Shown: one piece after another, positions 595-10,366 of the stretch | How the letters are laid out: each line of letters begins with the position of its first letter | How positions within the stretch are numbered: the stretch's first letter is position 1 | Assembly: GCA_023382575.1 (NCBI GenBank) | Contig: JAHDWC010000001.1 | Span: forward strand, 5,173 to 69,172 | Origin: Anaerolineales bacterium | Lineage (GTDB): Bacteria; Chloroflexota; Anaerolineae; Anaerolineales; Villigracilaceae | Reading direction: 5' to 3' | Length of the DNA: 64,000 nt | Made by a program: the position numbers and the translations under genes | The notes under the pieces: model-generated | Told to the model about the DNA's origin: nothing | Database searches by the model: none | The model's input: only the letters and a program-made list of their open reading frames with translations

Positions 595-726
595 GCATAT
601 TTTTTCCTTGAGTTTTACAAAATTCTCATATCTTCTCTTATAGGTGCCATCATAATCCTTACGGCCATCACTCTTGTTTTGGCATATGAGGCACGCAAAA
701 CGCAGAAAAACAAGTCACTAGATTAA
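595..726 (+). pseudogene. In-frame C-terminal remnant of the preceding membrane protein beyond the TAG
   Basis: Directly after the TAG the same frame runs for 43 codons to a TAA at 724-726. It encodes one clean transmembrane helix rich in Ile/Leu/Thr, followed by a basic tail (Arg-Lys-Thr-Gln-Lys-Asn-Lys). That is the usual end of a polytopic membrane protein with a cytoplasmic C-terminus. I infer that the intact ancestral gene ended at 726 and that one base change created the TAG. Suppression or a sequencing error could also explain it. Confidence 0.5.
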
Positions 727-733
727 AAAACCA

Positions 734-755
734 CACGCCGGAATAAACCGGCGTG
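734..755 (-). terminator. Intrinsic terminator of the HD-GYP cassette
   Basis: The arms CACGCCGG and CCGGCGTG form an 8-bp GC-rich stem with an AATAAA loop. On the minus strand the stem is followed by a T-run (complement of the A-run at 725-730), so it ends transcription from the minus-strand gene that stops at 821. Confidence 0.7.
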
Positions 756-776
756 CGCCCCATAATTGCCCCTACC

Positions 777-808
777 TGCGCCAGTTTTCCCCTCCCGCCA
801 CTGGCGCA
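777..808. terminator. Second hairpin between the gene ends
   Basis: A perfect 9-bp stem (TGCGCCAGT with ACTGGCGCA) encloses a 14-nt pyrimidine-rich loop. It lacks an adjacent T-run and lies just downstream of the HD-GYP stop, so it may stabilise the 3' end or assist the terminator at 734-755. Confidence 0.4.
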
Positions 809-820
809 CCAGATATCAAG

Positions 821-1864
821 TTAAGTTTCTTCCAAGATCATATCGATAAAGACCGGCGCAATAGACGGGTCGAAATGCCGCCCAGCTTGATGCAGAATAT
901 ACGCCAACGCATCAGCCCGTGACCAGGCACGACGATAAGGCCGGTCGGAGGTCAACGCATCGTACACATCGACGAAGGAAAAGAGGCGTGCAAACAAGGG
1001 AATATCCTCGCCTGACAACCCATCCGGGTATCCGCTTCCATCCCACTTTTCGTGATGCGAGCGCGGGATGACCAGCGCCCGTTCGAGCTGCGGCATCATC
1101 ACATTCAAGAGGTTCACAGCAATCAAGGGATGCTTGTGCATCACACCCCATTCCTCTTTGGTGAGCGTTCCCTCCTTAAGGAGGATGCGATCTGGAATGG
1201 CGATCTTGCCAATATCGTGTAATTCGCCTCCGCGGCGGATGTGGATCATGTCATGGTCTGGCACGCCCAGTCGGCGGGCAAGTTGCATGGTCATCGCCAC
1301 CACGCGGCGGGTATGGTCTTCTGTTTCAAAGTCACGCAGATACAAGGCACGTGACCAGCCTTCGATCATCTTTTCAATGGAGAATGGAACGTTGGCTATT
1401 GTGTTCGAAAATGTCCGATATGCACCTACATTCCAAATGAACAGGATCAAATTTCGATCCATGCTCGAGAGCAGACGGAACTCGTACCACGCCGCTCCCT
1501 TTTTGGGAAGCGAAATCATCGTTTCAAAGACAGAGAAGCGGCTTCCCAAAAGTACCTGATTGATGGCATGTTCGTACTTCGGACGCGCGCGCAGCGGAAC
1601 CATCTCGCGGACTTTCAGGCTGGAGGGCTTGAACAGGCTCAACCCTTTGCCATTCCGTGCTTTGAAGGTCAACACCCGCCCCTGCGGATCCATGACGAAC
1701 AGCAGGTCATCTACCTCATCCAACATGTCTGCCAAACTCAGGTTGAAGACTGGAAGACTGGCAGCCGAGGAAAAAGAGACCTGGAACCGCATGTCACCTT
1801 GCACCCCCATGCCTTCCGAGCCACGCGCGTCCATGGGAAAGGAATCCGGAGAGAAAAGTTGCAT
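821..1864 (-). CDS. PAS-like sensor with HD-GYP phosphodiesterase domain
   Basis: This 347-residue protein probably hydrolyses cyclic di-GMP. The N-terminal half (about residues 40-155) has a PAS-like pattern: a short LFVMDPQGRVLTF strand, helices and a WYEFRLL strand. The C-terminal half is a complete HD-GYP domain, with the HD pair in ELHDIGK near residue 216, HHEKWDGSGYP near 270-280 and the VDVYDALTSDRPYR helix near 298-310. It has no transmembrane segment, so it acts in the cytoplasm. The ATG at 1864 is preferred over an in-frame TTG at 1873. The gene is the last of a four-gene cassette, 12 nt after the small protein gene, which suggests that those proteins supply or modulate its signal. 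The family assignment is firm; the signal is unknown. Confidence 0.9.
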   Translation of the reverse strand: MQLFSPDSFPMDARGSEGMGVQGDMRFQVSFSSAASLPVFNLSLADMLDEVDDLLFVMDPQGRVLTFKARNGKGLSLFKPSSLKVREMVPLRARPKYEHAINQVLLGSRFSVFETMISLPKKGAAWYEFRLLSSMDRNLILFIWNVGAYRTFSNTIANVPFSIEKMIEGWSRALYLRDFETEDHTRRVVAMTMQLARRLGVPDHDMIHIRRGGELHDIGKIAIPDRILLKEGTLTKEEWGVMHKHPLIAVNLLNVMMPQLERALVIPRSHHEKWDGSGYPDGLSGEDIPLFARLFSFVDVYDALTSDRPYRRAWSRADALAYILHQAGRHFDPSIAPVFIDMILEET

Positions 1865-1876
1865 TTCGTCCAAAGA

Positions 1877-2146
1877 TCAACCAGCGAGCGACTGGTAGAC
1901 CTGCCTTGCCAAGTCTGAAAGGGATTCGGCACGGATGGAAGCGATCAACTCGCGCTCCTCACGCGTCAGGGAAAAGGTCTCGCCCAAATATCCTTTCTGA
2001 AGCGCCTCATGCGGATTGGTCAACAACATGTCGCAGAACTGGCGGCTGACGACCGCAGCGGCAAAGACGCGGCTCAACCCGTTCGGGGCAGTGACTGGCG
2101 CAACCTTAACCTGTAATTTGGTTTGATAAGTAAAAGAAGAAATCAT
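1877..2146 (-). CDS. Small 89-residue protein of a DUF5317/HD-GYP cassette
   Basis: The start codon overlaps the stop of the DUF5317 gene (ATGA), so the two are translationally coupled. The N-terminus is polar. From residue 35 there is a helical stretch with the pattern FCDMLLTNPHEAL, KGYLGETFSLT, then EERELIASIRA. That layout, a catabolic-looking 'L..P..A...GY.GE.F.LT.EE' block, resembles short Os1348/NHLP-clan proteins (RiPP leader-like), but this is my recollection of the pattern and not a demonstrated match. No signal peptide or membrane segment is visible. It is probably an adaptor or signalling peptide for the adjacent HD-GYP protein; that function is inference. Confidence 0.7.
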   Translation of the reverse strand: MISSFTYQTKLQVKVAPVTAPNGLSRVFAAAVVSRQFCDMLLTNPHEALQKGYLGETFSLTREERELIASIRAESLSDLARQVYQSLAG

Positions 2147-2712
2147 GTCGTTATCCTTTGGGTGGGCTGGTAAGCAAGGAGCCAGAAGACGCCAATGGCT
2201 AGAAAAACGTCACCGAGGCTGAATGCCACCTGATACGGGAACCAAGCTGGGGGCAGGAAGCGATCCGCAAACCATTCAAAGCGGGTACTCTCCGGGGTCA
2301 GAAGAACATCCTTCGTGCCAAAACGTTCGCCAATCGGGATGTCTACGAGAACTTCCTCAGAGACTAGTCGTCCTGCCGTCTGCGGGCTGATGGGCATGAA
2401 ACCGCCATTCGCCGCCATAACCGTGAAGTTGAGCGCTGCACCGATGAACAGGACAAACATCCCGGGAAGTTTTCGATTGAGCCAGGCAAATCCCAACAAG
2501 AGGAGTTGTGAAATTGTCAGGAAAACCGCTGACCATGAGTCAGAAACCTGCTGCCGAATGCCGGGAAGATAAAGGATCGCGAACTGCGGCAGGAAGGCAA
2601 GAAAAACCAGCCAGAGGAACTGCAAGTTGGGCGGCTGATAGGGTTGCCCATTCCACCGCGCCGCACCCATTCCGACGAGAAGCCCAGCCAGAACGGCGAC
2701 CAGCAGAACCAC
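2143..2712 (-). CDS. DUF5317 integral membrane protein
   Basis: The 189-residue protein has about five hydrophobic helices: residues 1-17, 30-50, 62-80, 85-105 and a C-terminal one at 160-180. The central sequence NFTVMAANGGFMPIS is the hallmark I associate with DUF5317 proteins of Chloroflexota and Firmicutes. Between the helices lies a soluble loop (about 108-150) that could sense a ligand outside the membrane. The GTG start at 2712 overlaps the TAG of the upstream 47-codon gene by one base, and the gene's stop overlaps the next start (ATGA). The whole cassette is therefore one transcript. Biochemical function is not known for the family. Confidence 0.8.
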   Translation of the reverse strand: MVLLVAVLAGLLVGMGAARWNGQPYQPPNLQFLWLVFLAFLPQFAILYLPGIRQQVSDSWSAVFLTISQLLLLGFAWLNRKLPGMFVLFIGAALNFTVMAANGGFMPISPQTAGRLVSEEVLVDIPIGERFGTKDVLLTPESTRFEWFADRFLPPAWFPYQVAFSLGDVFLAIGVFWLLAYQPTQRITT

Positions 2713-2855
2713 TAGCGGCTTGTCCCGCCACTATCTTCCGGAGCGCCAACGCCGAGGACCAACATGCTCAGGGAAAGCAGAACGAAGAAAAGCTGGATGT
2801 GCTGGCGATTGATCTTCGAAGCAGACAAAACGAGGAGGTTCAGTTTGTTTTTCAT
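2712..2855 (-). CDS. 47-residue single-span membrane peptide heading the DUF5317 cassette
   Basis: This short gene starts with ATG at 2855, preceded by an AGGAAG ribosome-binding site 6 nt upstream. It encodes a basic N-terminus (Lys-Asn-Lys), a polar stretch, one strong hydrophobic helix (about residues 20-37) and a short tail, Ala-Pro-Glu-Asp-Ser-Gly-Gly-Thr-Ser-Arg. The stop (TAG, 2714-2712) shares a base with the GTG of the DUF5317 gene. Good translation signals and coupling argue that it is real. It could be a secreted or anchored peptide signal read by the DUF5317 protein, but that is inference. Confidence 0.6.
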   Translation of the reverse strand: MKNKLNLLVLSASKINRQHIQLFFVLLSLSMLVLGVGAPEDSGGTSR

Positions 2856-2940
2856 GTCAAATCTTCCTTTTCTATCTGGTTTTGTTGGCAATAGAATATC
2901 AACGCCCAGGCTTCAAAACAGGCTTCAAAAAATAAAAAAA

Positions 2941-2960
2941 ATCAGCCCCAAAAGGCTGAT
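2941..2960 (-). terminator. Intrinsic terminator of the MalT-like regulator gene
   Basis: A 7-bp stem (ATCAGCC with GGCTGAT) closes a CCAAAA loop. On the minus strand it is followed by a long T-rich run (complement of 2927-2940). It lies 28 nt after the stop at 2988. On the plus strand it is also followed by four Ts, so it may act in both directions. Confidence 0.75.
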
Positions 2961-2987
2961 TTTTGCTGTGTAGACGGATGTGTCAGG

Positions 2988-5900
2988 CTATTTTGTCAGC
3001 TGCCGATACAACTCCTCGGTTTCTCTGGATGGAGGCAGATTGAACATCTGCCTCAGCTCATCGCTACATGCTTGATAATAACGGGTGATCGCCGCCCGGT
3101 CTCCCAAGCGATGAGAAACCTGCATCAAAACCCGATAGGCGGCTTCATTCCCAGGGTCGATCTCAAGAATCTTCTGGCAGGCGGCGATTGCCTTCTGGGG
3201 CTGGGCCTGTTTCAAGTACAGCTCCGCAAGGGCTAACAATGCATCCAGGTGAGCTAATCGCAAGCGTTCACGGTCTTGGGTCGTCCAATCGGCATACAAA
3301 TCATTGAGGTAGGGACCGCGCACCAAATTCACAGCTCGTTGGTAATACTCGATCTTCTCTCCGGGTTCCATCGCACTTTTCGCCCGCGAAAGAAAGGACT
3401 CAAACGCCTCGACATCATATTCATAATCCAAGCCACGATTGAACGAGTAATACACATCCTTGAATTGAATCACATCCTGTCCCACAGCGCGGCGCAAGCG
3501 ATAGACCTCATTCTTAAAGCGCAGCTTCAATTTCGATGGCTCATACAACTCTCCCCAAAGCGCCTCTCCAATCTGTTCACGAGTGAGCGGCTTGGTGGAT
3601 GCGAGGAAAAAGAAGAACAATTCCCGCACCGACTGTGTCTGCCATTCCGAAAGACTCAATGTTCTGCCATCGATACTGACCACAGCCTGACCAAACGCCT
3701 GAATGGACAGCCGCGGCATGGGACTTGAAATCACACGCACCTGCCGCCTCAATTGCCGACGGATAGCGGGGATGTTGTTCCCAAAGCGTTCTGCCTGTGA
3801 GAACAGATCGCGGATCGCGCGCCCGATCCCGGAGATGGATTGCAGCCCAGTCAGCCACTCACGCGCCTGATAAACAGCCACCAAGGCCGGATGCATGACC
3901 TTTCCACGCCCCGCAGTAAGTTCACTCAAAACTTGTAACGCCGCTCCAGAATCACCGGACTGAAAATAAACCGCCGCACGCCAGATCCGCGCCACCCAGA
4001 CTTCTGCAACCCGGCCATCTTCGGAAAAATTCTTTTCCGCTTCATCAAAGTACATGGCTGCATCATTTAGATTTCCATCCAACAGGGAAAGCCGACCCTG
4101 CAACAGATCGAGCAAACTTTTCTCGTACTTTGAGTTGCTGGAACGGATCGAGTCTTGCGCTTCTGCAATCGTTTCATTTGCAAGAGTCGAGTTCCTCTGC
4201 AAAAAAGCCAAATGGGCTCGCGCCAAGGCCAGTGAATGGATCAAAAAGCGATTATCCATACCTTGCAGAGCATGCCTGGCCTGCTCGTAATTCTGCTTCG
4301 CCATTTCGAAGTCTTCCAACTCTGCATACAGATCTCCAAACCCAATCGAGATCAACACGTTTAGGCGGGTATCATGAATACGTTGTGCACAAAGCAATCC
4401 TTCCTCATACGCCAGGGCAGATTTTTCATACTCACCCAAAAATTGATAAAACACGCCCAGATTGTTGAGCAGATTTGCCTGCCAATAGAGATTGCCATCC
4501 TGCCGCCAGAATTGTAAGGCTTGTTCATAAGCATTTTGGGCATCTTTGTAATTGCCAGTTGCGCGGTAAACCATCCCCGTATCCAATAATAATAGTGGCA
4601 GATTGGCTTTATCGTACAGGCGACAGAGTTCCAGCGCACGCTCCAATACCGGGACGGCTTGATTGGCTCGCCCAAGGCGATATAAAGCCAGCCCTTTCAG
4701 ACGCAGCGCATCCGCATGCCATAATTGCAGGTCGTCGCTGTCTTTTGTCAGCTTGATGGCTTCCTCCGCATCTCGAAGTGACGCTTCATAGTCCCCGATG
4801 AAGCGCAACGCTGAACCACGCCGAATCAACGTCAGAATCAAACCGGAGGTATCCCCATCCTCTCGGTACATCTTCTCGGCTTGTGCCAGAAATTCCAATC
4901 CTTCCTGCAGATCGCCTTTGGTGTAGGCTATCGTCCCGCGGATGGAAAGCAGCCCGGGCTTGGCACGTAACATGGATGGCGGCAACTCGTTCAGCCAGGA
5001 CTCCATGGTGAGATGCGCGCTTTGCAGCATGGATGTCCCTGCCCGTTCGATCAAACCAGCCAGCGCTTGCGCATCGCTCAACTGCACACAGATCTGATGC
5101 GCCTTGCCCCATTCACCCATCTCTTCATAAGCAAGCTGCAAACGCGAAAGGATCGGCTTGATTTCTCCCGGTCGTTCAATTTGAAAACGCTGGCGGATGA
5201 AATCCAGAAAAAGATGATGGTATCGCAGCCAACGCCCGTCTTCGCCAACAGGCAATGCAAATAAATTGTTCCGCGCGATGAAACGAATCCATTGCGACCA
5301 ATTCTGCTGCTCGGGATAGAACGGAGCCAGCACCGACTCGCACAAGTTCGCATCAAACTCCCCGAGGAGGGAGGTGCGCAAAATAAATTCTCTCAACTCT
5401 GGCGGCTGACGATCCAACACCTGTTGACCCAGATAATCGAACAGACCAGCGCCGTCTTCCAGCACAGAGAAGGAACTCTTGCGCAAAAGCCCAGCCCCGG
5501 AAAATTGCAGCCCTGTGATCCACCCTTCCGACTCTTCGATGAGTCGGCTTGCCTCTTCATCGGAAATATGTTTTCCGCTGTTCTGCAAGACCAATGCTTG
5601 AAGTTCATCCGGGCGGAAGGCAAGGTCTGAAAACCCCAAGCCGCTGACTTGTTCGCGGGCCACCAGCAAGGGCAGGTCATTCAGAATCGCCAACATACGA
5701 GAGGAAATGACCAGGTGACAGTTATCGTCCACAAGTTGGACGAAGCGGTTCACAAAGGCATGGATGGACGAGACCCCTTCAAGCAAATGGAAATCGTCCA
5801 GCACAAAGACAAAATGCTCCTTGACCTGTTCGTACAGTTCGTTCACCAGCGTCACCAGCAGACGTTCCATATCCTGCTCGAACGAAGTCATTCCGTCCAG

Positions 5901-6203
5901 CACAATATTTGACTGACTGCCAAAGCCCGGGAATCGTTCCGCAAGAGCAGCGATGAAATAAGCAGCAAAGCGCTGCGGTTCGCGATCCAACTCATCCAAC
6001 GCCAGCCAGCAACAAGGCAGGTCACTCTGAGCGACCATGTCGATCAACAAGGATGTTTTCCCGTATCCAGCCGGCGCGGAAACAAGCGTTAGTTTTTTGT
6101 CCAACGCTTCAAACAGCATGTCCAACAGCCGCTTACGAGTGACCAACTCGGAGCGACGGCGAGGCGGGATGATTTTGGTCTTGCTTACGGGGATGGGAGA
6201 CAT
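2988..6203 (-). CDS. Large MalT/AfsR-like ATP-dependent transcriptional regulator with BTAD domain
   Basis: The protein is about 1071 residues. An N-terminal STAND-type ATPase has a Walker A motif (APAGYGKTSL, about residues 43-52) and a Walker B motif (FVFVLDDFHLL, near 130). The middle is a long helical region of tetratricopeptide-like repeats (about 400-780). The C-terminus carries a winged-helix OmpR/SARP-type DNA-binding domain (about 810-900) and a bacterial transcriptional activator domain (about 910-1065). Proteins of this design integrate an inducer and ATP binding before activating promoters. An in-frame TTG (6218) adds five residues; ATG at 6203 is preferred. It is transcribed divergently from dnaE and the target genes are unknown. 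Confidence 0.9.
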   Translation of the reverse strand: MSPIPVSKTKIIPPRRRSELVTRKRLLDMLFEALDKKLTLVSAPAGYGKTSLLIDMVAQSDLPCCWLALDELDREPQRFAAYFIAALAERFPGFGSQSNIVLDGMTSFEQDMERLLVTLVNELYEQVKEHFVFVLDDFHLLEGVSSIHAFVNRFVQLVDDNCHLVISSRMLAILNDLPLLVAREQVSGLGFSDLAFRPDELQALVLQNSGKHISDEEASRLIEESEGWITGLQFSGAGLLRKSSFSVLEDGAGLFDYLGQQVLDRQPPELREFILRTSLLGEFDANLCESVLAPFYPEQQNWSQWIRFIARNNLFALPVGEDGRWLRYHHLFLDFIRQRFQIERPGEIKPILSRLQLAYEEMGEWGKAHQICVQLSDAQALAGLIERAGTSMLQSAHLTMESWLNELPPSMLRAKPGLLSIRGTIAYTKGDLQEGLEFLAQAEKMYREDGDTSGLILTLIRRGSALRFIGDYEASLRDAEEAIKLTKDSDDLQLWHADALRLKGLALYRLGRANQAVPVLERALELCRLYDKANLPLLLLDTGMVYRATGNYKDAQNAYEQALQFWRQDGNLYWQANLLNNLGVFYQFLGEYEKSALAYEEGLLCAQRIHDTRLNVLISIGFGDLYAELEDFEMAKQNYEQARHALQGMDNRFLIHSLALARAHLAFLQRNSTLANETIAEAQDSIRSSNSKYEKSLLDLLQGRLSLLDGNLNDAAMYFDEAEKNFSEDGRVAEVWVARIWRAAVYFQSGDSGAALQVLSELTAGRGKVMHPALVAVYQAREWLTGLQSISGIGRAIRDLFSQAERFGNNIPAIRRQLRRQVRVISSPMPRLSIQAFGQAVVSIDGRTLSLSEWQTQSVRELFFFFLASTKPLTREQIGEALWGELYEPSKLKLRFKNEVYRLRRAVGQDVIQFKDVYYSFNRGLDYEYDVEAFESFLSRAKSAMEPGEKIEYYQRAVNLVRGPYLNDLYADWTTQDRERLRLAHLDALLALAELYLKQAQPQKAIAACQKILEIDPGNEAAYRVLMQVSHRLGDRAAITRYYQACSDELRQMFNLPPSRETEELYRQLTK

Positions 6204-6355
6204 CAATTGCCGTGCCAATCTATTACATTAAATACCTTAACGAATTCAACTTGTTTATTTTATCTCGTTAATAACCATTTTGACTGTTGCAGAGAAATGT
6301 TATTCTTCTGAATCTATTTTTTAAGCCGCGCGTAGGGGAATAGTCTGAACATGCG

Positions 6356-6439: not shown

Positions 6440-9400
6440 ATGTCCTTCGCCCACCTTCACGTTCACACCGAATACTCCATGCTCGACGGCTTCTCGAACA
6501 TCAAGAAGCTGGTCAAACGCGTCAAAGAAATGAACATGGACTCGGTCGCCATCACGGACCATGGCACGATGTTCGGCGTGATCGATTTCTACAAAGCCGC
6601 CAAAGCGGAAGGGGTCAAGCCCATTATCGGGCTTGAAGCCTACATGGCGGCGCGCGGCATGAAGGACAAGGACTCCAAGCTAGACCGTTCCTCCTTCCAT
6701 CTATTACTGCTCGCGGAAAATGACACTGGTTATCGTAACCTGTTGAAGATTGCCTCTGCCGCGCAGTTGGATGGTTTCTACTACTACCCCCGCATCGATC
6801 ATGACTTTTTAGCGGCTCACTCCGAAGGGCTGATCTGCACCTCCGGCTGTATGTCGGCGGAAATTCCGCGCGCATTGTTACAGGAAAAACCCGAAGAAGC
6901 CGTCCGCAAGTGGAATTGGTACTACGACGTGTTCGGTCCCGACCGCTTCTTCGTTGAGTTGCAGCAGCACAACATCCCTGAAATCCTAGACCTGAATCGA
7001 AAACTACTCGAACTTGGCGCGCGTTATTCGGCGCGATACATCGCCACCAATGACGTGCATTATGTCAACCAGGCAGACGCGAAATTGCAGGATGTGCTGT
7101 TGGCGATCCAGACCAACTCCACGTTGGCAGACCCAGACCGCATGCGCATGACCGATGACTCGTACTTCTTGCGCTCGCCGCTTGAGATGAGCAAACTCTT
7201 CTCCGAAGTGCCAGATGCGATTTCGAATACTTTGCTCATTGCCGAGCGCTGTAACGTGGACTTGGGCTTCAAGGGTTATCACCTGCCCGAGTTCCCCGTG
7301 CCGGAAGGTCACACCGCGGAATCATATCTGCGCTCGCTGTGCGAGGCTGGAGCGGAGATACGATATGGGGACGATTGCGACAGTCAACGGGTCCGCGAGA
7401 GGCTGAACTATGAATTAAGCGTCGTCAACAGCATGGGATTCAACGCCTACTTCCTCATCGTGTGGGATCTGTGTTCCTTCGCTCGCGAGCATGGCATTTG
7501 GTATAACGCGCGCGGTTCGGCGGCAGGCTCGATCATTGCATATACGCTTGGCATCACGATGGTGGACCCGCTCGAGCATGCGCTCATCTTTGAACGCTTC
7601 TTGAATCCGGGCCGTATCTCGATGCCCGATATCGACCTCGACTTCCGCGATGACCGCCGCCATGAGATGCTTGAATATTGCGCCCGCAAATATGGCGACG
7701 ACAAAGTGGCGCAGATCATCACCTTTGGCACCATGGGCACCAAAGCCGCCATCCGTGATGTGGCGCGCGTAATGGAAATCCCGCTGCCCGAAGTGGACAA
7801 GGTTGCCAAACTTGTCCCATTCTCAGCAGGTGGCACGACCGTCGCCGAGGCGAAAGAGGTCAAGGAATTCAAGCAGATCTACGACACCGATCCGAAGATG
7901 CGCGAGGTGATCGACATTGCCGAACGCATGGAAGGCACTGTCCGCAATGCAGGCACACACGCCGCCGGTGTGGTGATTTCCGACAAACCCATCATCGAAT
8001 ACCTGCCGCTTCACCGCCCGACCTCGAACTCGGAAGACACACCCATCAAGTCGGTGACACAGTTCGAAATGGGCATCCTCGACTCGCTTGGCATGTTGAA
8101 GGTGGACTTCCTTGGACTCATCACATTGACCGTGATGGCGCGTGCCTGTGACTTGATCTACAAACGACATGGAATCAAATTTGACCTGACCAACATCCCC
8201 ATTGATGATCCGAAATCCTTCGAGTTGATGGGTGCAGGTCAAACCGCTGGCGTGTTCCAAGTTGAAGGCGGCGGCATGACGCGCTGGCTCGTGCAGATGA
8301 AGCCGCAGAACCTCGATAACATCATCGCGATGGTGGCGTTGTATCGTCCGGGTCCGATGGCGTTCATCCCTGATTACATAGCGCGTATGCACGGCGAAGC
8401 GGAAGTGGAATATCGTCACCCCGCCATGGAGCCGATCTTCAAAGACACCTTCGGCATTCCGGTCTATCAGGAACAACTGATGCGCGCCGCCGTGGAACTT
8501 GCCGGGTATACGCCCTCCGAGTCGGATGAACTACGTAAGGCGATTTCGAAGAAGAAAAAAGAAGACATCGAAAAGCACCGCAACAAGTTCGTCAAAGGCG
8601 CGGTGGAAAAAGGCATGGAGCAATCCACCGCCGAAGCCATCTATGCGGACTGGGAAGAATTCGCACGTTACGGTTTCAACAAATCTCACGCCGCCGATTA
8701 CGGTGTAATCGCCGTACAAACCGCATATCTCAAATCACATTACCCCGCCGAGTACATGACCGCGCTCATGTCCGCTTCGGCAAGCCAGACCGAGAAGGTG
8801 GCTTTCTACGTGGCAGATGCCCGCAGCATGGGCGTGCCCGTCCTGCAACCTGACATCAACTCATCAATGTGGGACTTCGACATTGAAGATGTCGATGGCA
8901 AACCCAATATCCGTTTTGGCATGGGTGCCATCAAGAACGTTGGCGAGAACTCGGTGCAACCCATCATCGACGAACGTGCTGCCAACGGAAAATTCACAGA
9001 CCTCAACGACTTCGCCCGCCGCGTAGACTTGCGCGCTGTTGGCAAACGCTCACTCGAAAGCCTCATCAAAGTTGGCGCAATGGACTCCTTCGGTAACCGC
9101 GCCTCGCTGCTCGCGTCACTTGACCGCATCGTTGCCATCTCCAGCAATCATTTCCGCGCCGCCGATGCGGGACAAATGAGTCTCTTCGGCGCATCCACTG
9201 GCATTGTGGAAGAGATCACTTTGCCCGAAGTCAAAGATGTGGACAAGCGCGAAATGCTCAACTGGGAGCGCGAACTGATCGGGCTTTACATCTCCGACCA
9301 CCCGCTCAACGAATACCAAGCCACGCTCGCCAAGATCGTCAGCTATTTCTCGGGGCAGCTCGGCGAATCGAGCCACGAAGAAAAAGTGCGCATGGCGGGT

Positions 9401-10366
9401 CTTATCACCGGCGTGCGTCCCTACACCACCAAAACCGGCAAGCCCATGGGCTTCGCGCAAATGGAAGACATTCAAGGCACGGTCGAGCTGGTGCTCTTCC
9501 CCAAAACCTGGGAAGCCTCACGCGAAAAACTCACCGTCGGGCAGATTGTCATTGTCGAAGGCAAAGTGGACCACGGCAGCACGCCACCCAAATTGCTGGT
9601 CGATACGGTCAAGACCGAAATTCCGGTGACGACGTCGGCGGATGATCCCTTCATCACAGGCGATGAGACTCCCAAGCCCTTGCTTGCTCGCACGCAGGAA
9701 CAAGCTCCGCGCCGACCCGAAGCGCCTCAGACTCCGCCTAAACCTGCCGCACAACCCAAGCAGAATTCAACGTCGAAAGTGACACAGCAGGGCAGCGAGG
9801 TTGTGAATCAAAAAGTTGTCAAAGAAGAAGCACCCGCTTATAACTTCGATGACGATGTTCCCCCGCCGCCCGATAACTTCCCCGACGGCTGGGACAATGA
9901 ATGGCAGCCCTCCTTCGACGAAGCCGCGATTGCCGCGAAGCCTGCGCCGAAGTTCAAAAAAGATGAACCGGTGACTCCTCCGTTGGTGACTCGCGCGGTG
10001 ACAGCGTTGACTCAAGCCGAAGTCTTGAATCCCGCCGAAGACAAGGATGATGCGGTCATCCCGTCGTTATATGTCCCGCTTGCCAAAGAAAACGCGGACA
10101 AGGATCATCCGCCCAAGCAGATCACCGTCACCCTGCGCTCCACCGGTGACAAGGAACGCGACAAACGCCGCATCAAGACCTTGTACGGGACGTTCATCTC
10201 GTATCACGGACGCGACAAGTTCAGTTTTCAGATCTTCGAGAACGGCAAGGGACACCTGATCGACTTCCCCAACGACACCACGCGCATCTGCCCCGAACTG
10301 CTCGAACGCCTGAAGAAGCTGATGGGCGAAGAGACCTGGCGCGTGGAAGAGATCACGTTTCAATAG
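6440..10366 (+). CDS. dnaE: DNA polymerase III subunit alpha with long C-terminal extension
   Basis: This is the replicative polymerase catalytic subunit, 1308 residues against about 1160 in E. coli. The N-terminal PHP domain (1-210) keeps metal ligands such as HLHVHTEYS at residues 5-11 and ITDHGT, so it may be an active 3'-5' nuclease. The catalytic aspartates sit in MPDIDLDF (about 395-402) and VDFLGL (near 556). The palm also has GSAAGSIIAYTLGIT. A helix-hairpin-helix region and an OB-fold (about 970-1050) follow. After residue 1080 comes a Pro/Lys-rich disordered linker and a terminal folded block of about 80 residues with a TLYGTFISYHGRDKF strand pattern, an extension not found in E. 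coli. The start has no ribosome-binding site. Confidence 0.97.
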   Translation: MSFAHLHVHTEYSMLDGFSNIKKLVKRVKEMNMDSVAITDHGTMFGVIDFYKAAKAEGVKPIIGLEAYMAARGMKDKDSKLDRSSFHLLLLAENDTGYRNLLKIASAAQLDGFYYYPRIDHDFLAAHSEGLICTSGCMSAEIPRALLQEKPEEAVRKWNWYYDVFGPDRFFVELQQHNIPEILDLNRKLLELGARYSARYIATNDVHYVNQADAKLQDVLLAIQTNSTLADPDRMRMTDDSYFLRSPLEMSKLFSEVPDAISNTLLIAERCNVDLGFKGYHLPEFPVPEGHTAESYLRSLCEAGAEIRYGDDCDSQRVRERLNYELSVVNSMGFNAYFLIVWDLCSFAREHGIWYNARGSAAGSIIAYTLGITMVDPLEHALIFERFLNPGRISMPDIDLDFRDDRRHEMLEYCARKYGDDKVAQIITFGTMGTKAAIRDVARVMEIPLPEVDKVAKLVPFSAGGTTVAEAKEVKEFKQIYDTDPKMREVIDIAERMEGTVRNAGTHAAGVVISDKPIIEYLPLHRPTSNSEDTPIKSVTQFEMGILDSLGMLKVDFLGLITLTVMARACDLIYKRHGIKFDLTNIPIDDPKSFELMGAGQTAGVFQVEGGGMTRWLVQMKPQNLDNIIAMVALYRPGPMAFIPDYIARMHGEAEVEYRHPAMEPIFKDTFGIPVYQEQLMRAAVELAGYTPSESDELRKAISKKKKEDIEKHRNKFVKGAVEKGMEQSTAEAIYADWEEFARYGFNKSHAADYGVIAVQTAYLKSHYPAEYMTALMSASASQTEKVAFYVADARSMGVPVLQPDINSSMWDFDIEDVDGKPNIRFGMGAIKNVGENSVQPIIDERAANGKFTDLNDFARRVDLRAVGKRSLESLIKVGAMDSFGNRASLLASLDRIVAISSNHFRAADAGQMSLFGASTGIVEEITLPEVKDVDKREMLNWERELIGLYISDHPLNEYQATLAKIVSYFSGQLGESSHEEKVRMAGLITGVRPYTTKTGKPMGFAQMEDIQGTVELVLFPKTWEASREKLTVGQIVIVEGKVDHGSTPPKLLVDTVKTEIPVTTSADDPFITGDETPKPLLARTQEQAPRRPEAPQTPPKPAAQPKQNSTSKVTQQGSEVVNQKVVKEEAPAYNFDDDVPPPPDNFPDGWDNEWQPSFDEAAIAAKPAPKFKKDEPVTPPLVTRAVTALTQAEVLNPAEDKDDAVIPSLYVPLAKENADKDHPPKQITVTLRSTGDKERDKRRIKTLYGTFISYHGRDKFSFQIFENGKGHLIDFPNDTTRICPELLERLKKLMGEETWRVEEITFQ

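Follow-up and report, generated by a model that had tools for sequence, protein, structure and literature searches.

A conserved membrane peptide, DUF5317 and a STAND-TPR-BTAD regulator may form a peptide-signaling circuit in Chloroflexota

A small conserved membrane peptide, a DUF5317 membrane protein and a large sensor-type activator may together form one circuit, representing an undescribed kind of bacterial peptide signaling. The locus lies in a 64,000-nucleotide stretch of an Anaerolineales genome (contig JAHDWC010000001.1), here called the window, and thus in the Chloroflexota, bacteria often encountered in sludge, sediments and hot springs. We give an even chance to reading the locus as a peptide-signal cassette under its own control, with DUF5317 recognizing, and probably cutting, the peptide at a G-A-P motif. 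If so, cell–cell communication in these bacteria would become open to study. DUF5317 would gain a first testable role, with a 20-bp operator, two aspartates, the G-A-P motif and defined tails as handles. By title and abstract opening, none of the literature matches listed described a peptide signaling system in Chloroflexota, and a full-text literature search returned no paper on DUF5317.

The proposed circuit would run as follows. The regulator would bind two direct repeats before the peptide gene and activate the peptide–DUF5317–NHLP-like–HD-GYP operon, as operator geometry and linkage suggest. The peptide is predicted to be membrane-embedded, its short tail following a small-x-G-A-P motif that DUF5317 would recognize. 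Cleavage would most likely occur at this motif, with DUF5317 acting as an intramembrane aspartyl protease through D150 and D168, much as signal peptidase II does. The freed tail or the remnant might then be the signal that the TPR/STAND regulator detects in an autoinducing loop, the weakest step of the scheme. Output would be c-di-GMP breakdown through the HD-GYP protein in the window and two-component signaling in other clades, with the NHLP-like protein as a constant partner and possibly an adaptor.

Results

Layout of the unit and its regulator

Four minus-strand ORFs that a sequence-only reading had proposed as a cassette were recovered at the same positions, and their tight coupling was borne out by a TAGTG overlap, an ATGA overlap and a 12-nt gap between neighboring genes. 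That reading had the genes right but not the extent of the unit, as it missed a STAND-BTAD regulator (6218–2988) and an operator (2907–2926) upstream. The full order is regulator, operator, peptide, DUF5317, NHLP-like protein and output gene, the last encoding an HD-GYP protein in the window. No gene of the unit could be placed in 712–820, a stretch containing a terminator-like hairpin after the HD-GYP gene (732–757, minus strand; ten pairs, eight of them G-C, then GTTTTTT) that likely marks the operon end. A second terminator-like hairpin (2937–2964, minus strand; 12 pairs, then a T-run) separates the regulator from the peptide operon; similar hairpins were seen by eye in relatives. The flanking ORFs (70–594 and 6440–10366) lie on the opposite strand to the five-gene unit.

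The 1,076-aa regulator (2988–6218, minus strand) was classified by Pfam matches and conserved linkage as STAND-ATPase-like, with MalT-like TPRs and a C-terminal BTAD of the SARP type. BTAD scored 61.5 bits at residues 935–1074 (cut-off 22.1) and TPR_MalT 74.4 bits (cut-off 45). Residues 13–571 matched the MalT model at 234.8 bits (E = 1.7e-69), under its cut-off of 537; Pfam AAA matches stayed below cut-off, and a P-loop, APAGYGKTS, is readable in the translation. Of 97 distinct DUF5317 loci, 69 have a same-strand relative upstream, and the regulator, as the fifth gene of the unit, probably controls it. The second BTAD regulator of the window genome has no such peptide nearby.

In the RRNPPA systems of Bacillota, a short peptide gene lies beside a TPR-containing regulator, in some cases with tandem propeptides (PMC11343458). 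The window cassette shares the short peptide gene, the TPR regulator and presumed autoinduction but differs in its STAND-ATPase-like regulator with C-terminal BTAD, in the additional DUF5317 and NHLP-like proteins and in its Chloroflexota host. RRNPPA receptors combine an HTH with TPRs, and their peptides are secreted, matured and taken up again; no RRNPPA-type HTH was present among the 25 of 31 Pfam matches listed for the window regulator.

A repeat operator upstream of the peptide gene

The operator (2907–2926, minus strand) was recognized by pattern matches and conserved geometry. It consists of two direct GAAGCCTG repeats in 12-bp units (TTTTGAAGCCTG twice), followed 8 nt after the second repeat by a −10-like hexamer, TATTCT (2893–2898, minus strand). 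It is unique in the window at up to three mismatches, where no matches are expected, and its pattern has one match in its own genome at up to two mismatches. Of 66 distinct upstream regions, 19 had the GAAGCC form and 43 some 11- or 12-bp direct repeat (46 of 69 including copies, some of these 46 being low-complexity or far from the start). In 50 single-base shuffles, 11/12-bp repeats turned up in 1.46 of the 69 regions on average and in 4 at most. The distance from the GAAGCC core to the −10-like hexamer was exactly 10 nt in 21 of 22 GAAGCC-type regions (the 22 include three copies of other loci). The reversed operator pattern, used as a control, matched once across eight genomes (G233). Exact operator copies in another genome (G611) pointed to two candidate target genes, neither with a Pfam match. 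Together, regulator and operator suggest an autoregulated circuit.

In its form, the operator resembles those of SARP-LAL regulators as far as these are covered in the extracts of PMC5930380 and PMC10972967, and binding in the window is predicted. The operator of Streptomyces PimR comprises direct heptamer repeats near the promoter (PMC5930380, in part). Like PimR, the window regulator combines BTAD with a large STAND-type ATPase, an assignment based for the ATPase part on sub-cut-off matches and the P-loop. However, PimR has an N-terminal SARP and a C-terminal LAL part, whereas the ATPase is N-terminal and BTAD C-terminal here. Heptamers with 4-nt spacers give an 11-bp unit, found in some other clades, while the window clade has 12 bp, and the target is a peptide operon instead of antibiotic genes.

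DUF5317 as a candidate protease or sensor

The 189-aa DUF5317 protein (2143–2712, minus strand) starts with a GTG inside the TAGTG overlap, and its proposed identity was confirmed by a PF17248 match of 116.3 bits against a gathering cut-off of 25. Conserved residues among 134 sequences are N95, M106, P107, D150 and D168; both D150 and D168 are Asp in 133 of these, the remaining one having a gap, and an S-x-G-D block is nearly invariant over distant members. These features recall LspA (PF01252), likewise small and polytopic with two conserved aspartates and an [N/S]-x-[A/G]-D-x5-G block, and we infer that D150 and D168 are equivalent to its catalytic pair. DUF5317 differs in lacking a PF01252 match, its partner peptide has no lipobox cysteine before the tail and the fold similarity is not significant. 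An AlphaFold2 model (mean pLDDT 95.6) aligned with LspA 5dir at Z 5.2 (94 aligned residues, 3.1 Å, 18% identity; row 3) and with 6ryp at Z 4.6 (91 residues, 3.4 Å, 20% identity; row 11), both tied with unrelated rows. Profile comparison with LspA gave a probability of 43 (E = 2.5e-4) for a five-sequence set and of 2.2 (E = 0.022) for a 35-sequence set, with reversed controls at 0.1 and 0.12. For the larger set, the real score was 15.4 versus a shuffle mean of 12.0 and was reached by 18 of 150 column shuffles. As neither profile nor fold comparison is significant, we treat the likeness to LspA as a lead only. A broader proposition is offered tentatively, with the balance against it: DUF5317 proteins would be intramembrane aspartyl proteases of a new, LspA-like class, dedicated to maturing peptide pheromones at small-x-G-A-(P) in at least two Chloroflexota circuits, namely autoinduction under the STAND-SARP regulator and a c-di-GMP module of MKW peptide and MASE9-HD-GYP. 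In that case the phylum would possess peptide communication of its own, with no relation to RRNPPA or Agr.

The most serious competitor, still on the unlikely side, is that DUF5317 is not a protease but a membrane receptor or sensor that binds the peptide inside the membrane and relays the signal to partners such as HD-GYP or EAL. Fusions join DUF5317 to EAL in Euzebya (L316) and, in other classes, to MFS transporters (L296, L297, L299, L302 and L304), and DUF5317 also adjoins MASE9-HD-GYP with a tiny MKW peptide; because of the EAL and MFS fusions, a sensor or transport role suits it as well. No search returned a significant protease match: PF17248 was the only Pfam hit at E ≤ 1, with no protease family, the DUF5317 profile had no match among PDB chain sequences at E ≤ 10, Foldseek against the PDB found nothing significant (best E 0.87) and the LspA profile added none. 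Yet a sensor need not require the two near-invariant aspartates and the S-x-G-D block over distant members. Also against a sensor, the peptide family has a short conserved motif where the membrane ends and a variable tail. Among 21 stretches (20 Chloroflexota genomes and one Euzebya plasmid), a candidate short peptide stood beside DUF5317 in four, all from the ten stand-alone copies; the 11 fused or longer copies had no such neighbor. This count speaks against the protease reading and slightly lowered our estimate for the broader proposition. Plasmid searches for relatives recovered Euzebya only.

The peptide and its tie to DUF5317

The 47-aa single-span peptide (2712–2855, minus strand; ending GAPEDSGGTSR) is a true gene under purifying selection, with dN/dS values of 0.03–0.27 against nine of ten relatives compared and saturation for the tenth. 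To our knowledge, a Pro straight after G-A does not make an ordinary signal-peptidase I site. Non-conservation of the peptide with DUF5317, on which the sequence-only reading would have abandoned its proposal, was not what we found: of 69 distinct regulator-type loci, 66 yielded the peptide to a pattern search (strict G-A-P in 64), and 68 of 70 peptide genomes of the class contain DUF5317. L100, L106 and L128 yielded none, but profile searching retrieved two peptides in L106, making this the 67th peptide-bearing locus. Exceptions to G-A-P were GAL in L039, AAP in L133, SAP in L236 and GTP plus GAL in L349.

Among 249 genomes of the class, 68 had both peptide and DUF5317, two the peptide only, seven DUF5317 only and 172 neither; for 120 genomes within the family, a sample partly overlapping the first, these numbers were 44, one, two and 73. 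The correlation carries some ascertainment because the A3 peptide profile was built from DUF5317-adjacent peptides. Both peptide-only class cases look explained, as one match is a 200-aa unrelated-looking frame (G147) and the other lies at a contig edge (G245). Further exceptions are G556, at a contig edge, and G608, where the DUF5317 match stops after about 98 aa. The same-locus peptide has QGP or KAP in five genomes that lack DUF5317 and belong to a single genus, in which G603 has both DUF5317 and GAP; with one genus involved and only some of its DUF5317-less genomes read, these cases may be one event. None of 13 DUF5317-less peptide loci read in 12 genomes (L251–L255, L258, L260–L262, L269, with an uncertain frame, and L343–L345) contained G-A-P, and three kept A-P (KAP, NAP and PAP). 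This count omits L259 and L270 (no peptide found), L256 and L263 (regulator absent from the stretch) and L257, L266 and L267 (DUF5317 in the genome). Of these, L257 is an extra regulator–NHLP locus in DUF5317-containing G118, with a candidate peptide lacking G-A-P. Overall, co-occurrence supports a functional tie between peptide and DUF5317.

Such a tie would also be expected if the peptide were an intact small membrane regulatory subunit that stabilizes or tunes DUF5317 without any signal leaving the cell, an explanation we consider improbable. The short single span, the stop codon overlapping the DUF5317 start and the strong co-occurrence would suit a subunit. Unusual for one, however, are tandem near-identical copies (in seven of 97 distinct loci, with five copies in G564), variable tails and, in a DUF5317-less relative (L261), a peptide ORF bearing its tail three times. 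Equally unusual are loci that keep regulator, G-A-P peptide and NHLP-like gene side by side although DUF5317 is elsewhere in the genome (L231, L232, L233, L235, L237 and L356).

The favored peptide-signal reading has parallels elsewhere. In Agr, a short AgrD peptide gene lies beside AgrB, a membrane protein thought to process AgrD, much as the cassette peptide gene adjoins DUF5317. Unlike in Agr, DUF5317 matches only PF17248 in Pfam and the cassette peptide family has no conserved cysteine. The proposed peptide route also resembles that of Staphylococcus aureus lipoprotein-leader peptides, where a leader gives rise to an extracellular peptide via Eep and EcsAB (PMC7157817).

NHLP-like protein and output genes

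The 89-aa helical protein (1877–2146, minus strand) had been suggested to resemble NHLP-type sequences. It is NHLP-clan-like (Os1348-like), aligning to positions 10–61 of the 63-position model NF038399 with E = 1.7e-6, but its 28 bits fall below the curated 40-bit cut-off and it has no core peptide. A same-strand relative was present in 68 of 69 regulator-type loci, with none on the opposite strand. A fold search with its model (mean pLDDT 74) gave nothing significant; several nitrile hydratase alpha chains appeared at E 7–9 with 34% identity over 38 columns. The clan resemblance and one locus with four tandem NHLP-like paralogues differing in their tails (L264) would fit a small RiPP- or bacteriocin-like cluster with the NHLP-like protein as leader-type element and the peptide as precursor. 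This is very improbable, given that the window copy lacks a core, the five-gene unit contains no modification enzyme, its neighbors on both sides lie on the other strand and many downstream genes scanned in relatives are signaling genes. The peptide is short and hydrophobic and occurs in several copies in some genomes, as a membrane toxin might in a toxin–antitoxin-like pair with a control gene, but its stable class-wide conservation with regulator and output genes, the purifying selection on it and the weakness of the PADLOC matches leave almost no room for this reading. An anti-phage defense role was rejected, PADLOC giving just weak TPR, GajB and Cas3 HD matches of partner proteins.

The fourth gene (821–1864, minus strand; ATG at 1864, alternative TTG at 1873) encodes a PAS-HD-GYP c-di-GMP phosphodiesterase-like protein (PF13487, PF01966 and PF08448). 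Its predicted identity is supported by HD_5 (PF13487) at 127.9 bits (cut-off 27.2) and a readable HHEKWDGSGYP, the hallmark of HD-GYP phosphodiesterases being HHExxDGxGYP; PAS_4 scored 24.1 bits (cut-off 23.1). The peptide-to-membrane-to-c-di-GMP route envisaged from the sequence has its HD-GYP protein in the window but is not general in this locus type, where 27 of 69 loci have an HD-GYP relative next in line; response regulators or kinases were common downstream in the others scanned. A second DUF5317 locus type, comprising a tiny MKW peptide, MASE9-HD-GYP and DUF5317, fits this c-di-GMP idea better than the regulator type does.

Gene order and conservation of the locus

On the minus strand of this Chloroflexota genome (G000), the unit opens with a 1076-aa STAND-like/TPR/BTAD regulator (6218-2988). 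Between it and a 47-aa peptide gene (2855-2712) stands a terminator-like hairpin; the peptide gene is followed by DUF5317 (2712-2143), an 89-aa NHLP-like protein (2146-1877), a PAS-HD-GYP protein (start at 1864 or 1873, end at 821) and a second terminator-like hairpin, all on the same strand. No gene of the unit was placed at 712-820. The sequence-only reading had described the last four genes as a tightly coupled cassette. These genes are real, and their overlaps and gap are correct on the minus-strand ORF reading, but the unit was incomplete, as the conserved unit also takes in the upstream STAND-BTAD regulator. The finding is real and of more interest than first described. On the plus strand (70-723), a membrane-protein ORF (70-594) runs into an in-frame TAG, while the frame stays open and hydrophobic to ~723, giving the look of a gene broken by a stop codon.

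Conservation was assessed in 100 loci: the window, 19 named loci and 80 stretches from further genomes of the class. By DUF5317 sequence, 97 of the 100 are distinct. A same-strand STAND-BTAD regulator lies upstream in 69 of the 97. Among these regulator-type loci, the peptide, recognized by its sequence pattern, is present in 66, which agrees with its proposed conservation ahead of DUF5317 in relatives; 64 carry a strict G-A-P motif, with GAL in L039 and AAP in L133. The NHLP-like protein is present in 68 of the 69 and a downstream HD-GYP relative in 27. Domain scanning of 43 of the 71 first downstream genes (the other 28, mostly known HD-GYP, were left out) gave response-regulator domains in 15, histidine-kinase domains in 12 and an HD-GYP-type HD domain in 4; the output, therefore, varies around a constant core. 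The c-di-GMP output envisaged earlier is accordingly not general in this locus type, and the c-di-GMP step itself stays putative.

A second locus type, with an HD-GYP gene directly 5' of DUF5317, accounts for 16 of the 97 loci; neither STAND regulator nor NHLP-like gene was detected in these 16. In 13, a peptide of 26-39 aa with an MKW start precedes the HD-GYP gene; 11 of these peptides have KW near the C-terminus, with one or two residues after it. The remaining three loci have 2, 12 or 194 nt between the start of the HD-GYP frame and the end of the contig. Seven of eight HD-GYP proteins scanned match the MASE9 membrane sensor domain (E ≤ 0.01), three of them above the MASE9 cut-off. Of the 97 loci, this leaves 12, which either are truncated by a contig end or contain DUF5317 with neither neighbor type.

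The peptide and its upstream region

Judged on sequence, the peptide is a true gene. Its relatives sit shortly 5' of DUF5317, mostly behind a plausible ribosome-binding site, and pairwise dN/dS against the window peptide was 0.03 to 0.27 for nine of ten relatives, the tenth being saturated. The layout does not vary: an N-terminal stretch leads into a single hydrophobic span, then come small residues and G-A-P, and the tail is short, variable and often rich in glycine. Across 68 peptide sequences, A38 is invariant and G37 and P39 are each conserved in at least 90%. Tandem copies occur in 7 of the 97 distinct loci, and one genome (G564) contains five copies.

Upstream of the peptide lie two copies of TTTTGAAGCCTG, followed after 8 nt by a −10-like hexamer, TATTCT. 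This repeat element is the sole match in the window (0 expected by chance) and, at up to two mismatches, in G000. Seven other genomes contain it, five with one match each, G089 with two and G611 with five; the reversed pattern, used as a control, matched once across the eight genomes. The GAAGCC form occurs in 19 of 66 distinct upstream regions; with three copies counted as well, 21 of 22 GAAGCC regions share exactly the same spacing to the −10-like hexamer. Direct repeats of 11 or 12 bp (≥8/9 matches), of one sequence or another, are present in 43 of the 66 (shuffles, mean of 1.46 in 69). The repeat sequence differs between clades at similar spacing, as expected if a co-evolving regulator contacts the DNA. 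In excerpts from PMC5930380 and PMC10972967, SARP-LAL operators are direct heptamers with 11-bp units. Given the element, its spacing and this operator form, the most likely control is that the neighboring regulator activates the peptide operon directly. Two more exact copies in G611 (L366 and L360) precede genes without a Pfam match, possible regulon members; with two mismatches, the element also occurs ahead of an HU-like gene in G611 (L368) and of a LuxR-type gene in G089 (L365).

Co-occurrence of peptide and DUF5317

Among 249 class genomes, 68 contain both peptide (E ≤ 1e-5) and DUF5317, 2 only the peptide, 7 only DUF5317 and 172 neither, counts somewhat biased by a peptide profile derived from DUF5317-linked peptides; two of the 68 (G074 and G139) owe their match to the MKW type. 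Of the two peptide-only genomes, one is a false match and the other reflects a contig edge. Within the family (n = 120, partly overlapping the class sample), the corresponding numbers are 44, 1, 2 and 73.

For genomes in which DUF5317 is of the second type or solitary, we inspected the locus that holds the peptide. L231, L232, L233, L235 and L237 each group a regulator, a G-A-P peptide and an NHLP-like gene away from DUF5317, although in L237 the regulator and the peptide are ~2 kb apart. In L238, a peptide and an NHLP-like gene lie where the contig begins. L236 has two SAP peptides and an NHLP-like gene with no same-strand regulator on the stretch, and L239-L241 have regulator and peptide but no NHLP-like gene within the stretch.

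Among the genus g3 genomes without a DUF5317 match, five were read (G130, G223, G454, G616 and G621). In four of them, the same locus still holds the regulator, peptide, NHLP-like and HD-GYP genes; the G616 contig begins at the peptide, leaving the regulator out of view. In all five, QGP or KAP replaces GAP, perhaps through a single event. Of their congeners, G603 has DUF5317 and a GAP peptide, and in G608 the DUF5317 match stops after ~98 aa and no peptide was detected. In DUF5317-less members of other families, the slot flanked by regulator and NHLP-like gene is filled by other short peptides, and G-A-P is absent from all slot peptides read. One slot ORF (L261, gap 4770-5193) carries three tail units of LLANPPVGGGSSAT type; another (L269, gap 4699-5114), in a less certain reading frame, carries five of RTPSAPSGWGG type. 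These patterns are suggestive of a tie between DUF5317 and the G-A-P form. Counting against it, G118 has DUF5317, yet the candidate peptide of its extra regulator-NHLP locus (L257) lacks G-A-P.

DUF5317 was found in 84 of 301 phylum genomes; outside the class, 20 stretches taken from these genomes were examined, together with one Euzebya plasmid. A candidate short peptide adjoins four of ten stand-alone copies (L306, L307, L308 and L315) and none of 11 fused or longer copies. The peptide-DUF5317 link is, therefore, firm within the class of the window and only partial outside. The four peptides have a single span and small residues before a Trp-containing tail (for example, GAPNDWPGP).

Possible roles of DUF5317 and the NHLP-like protein

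In 134 DUF5317 sequences, fused and distant members included, G91, N95, M106 and P107 are invariant, as are D150, G167 and D168 in all 133 covering those columns. The block S-x-G-D-x5-G, with an Asp ahead of it, resembles N-x-A-D-x5-G of signal peptidase II (LspA). A confident AlphaFold2 model (mean pLDDT 95.6) gave no significant Foldseek match. In a second structural comparison (245 aligned chains), LspA structures 5dir and 6ryp ranked in rows 3 and 11 (18% and 20% identity) with Z tied with unrelated rows, and a DUF5317-LspA profile comparison scored no better than shuffles. Given the Asp block and these comparisons, intramembrane cleavage of the peptide is favored but unproven. DUF5317 may have a sensor or export role: fusions to MFS transporters (DUF5317 N-terminal) in other Chloroflexota classes (typically L296; also L297, L299, L302 and L304) and a DUF5317-EAL fusion adjoining a GGDEF-EAL gene on a Euzebya pacifica plasmid (L316, 3710-6325) leave room for it. 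G000 itself has two tandem LspA genes (L136/L139, contig C245) and a third on contig C104.

The reading that suits the cassette best is a peptide-signal circuit with a new architecture. Gene linkage, conservation, repeat element and co-occurrence are direct observations. Beyond them, the regulator would bind the repeat element, the peptide would be cleaved, released and sensed, and the circuit would end in c-di-GMP output. A full-text search of limited coverage returned no paper mentioning DUF5317. Among the matches listed, likewise of limited coverage and seen in part, none described peptide quorum sensing in Chloroflexi/Chloroflexota or an RRNPP system for the phylum; the term Chloroflex- did not occur in the main text of the RRNPP papers searched for it.

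The 89-aa protein, earlier thought to resemble NHLP-type sequences, does match the Os1348 model, but below its cut-off. Its predicted structure is helical, and an adaptor role is a guess. In G184, four tandem NHLP-like paralogues (L264, 858-2231) have divergent C-terminal tails, like RiPP precursors, whereas the window copy has no tail.
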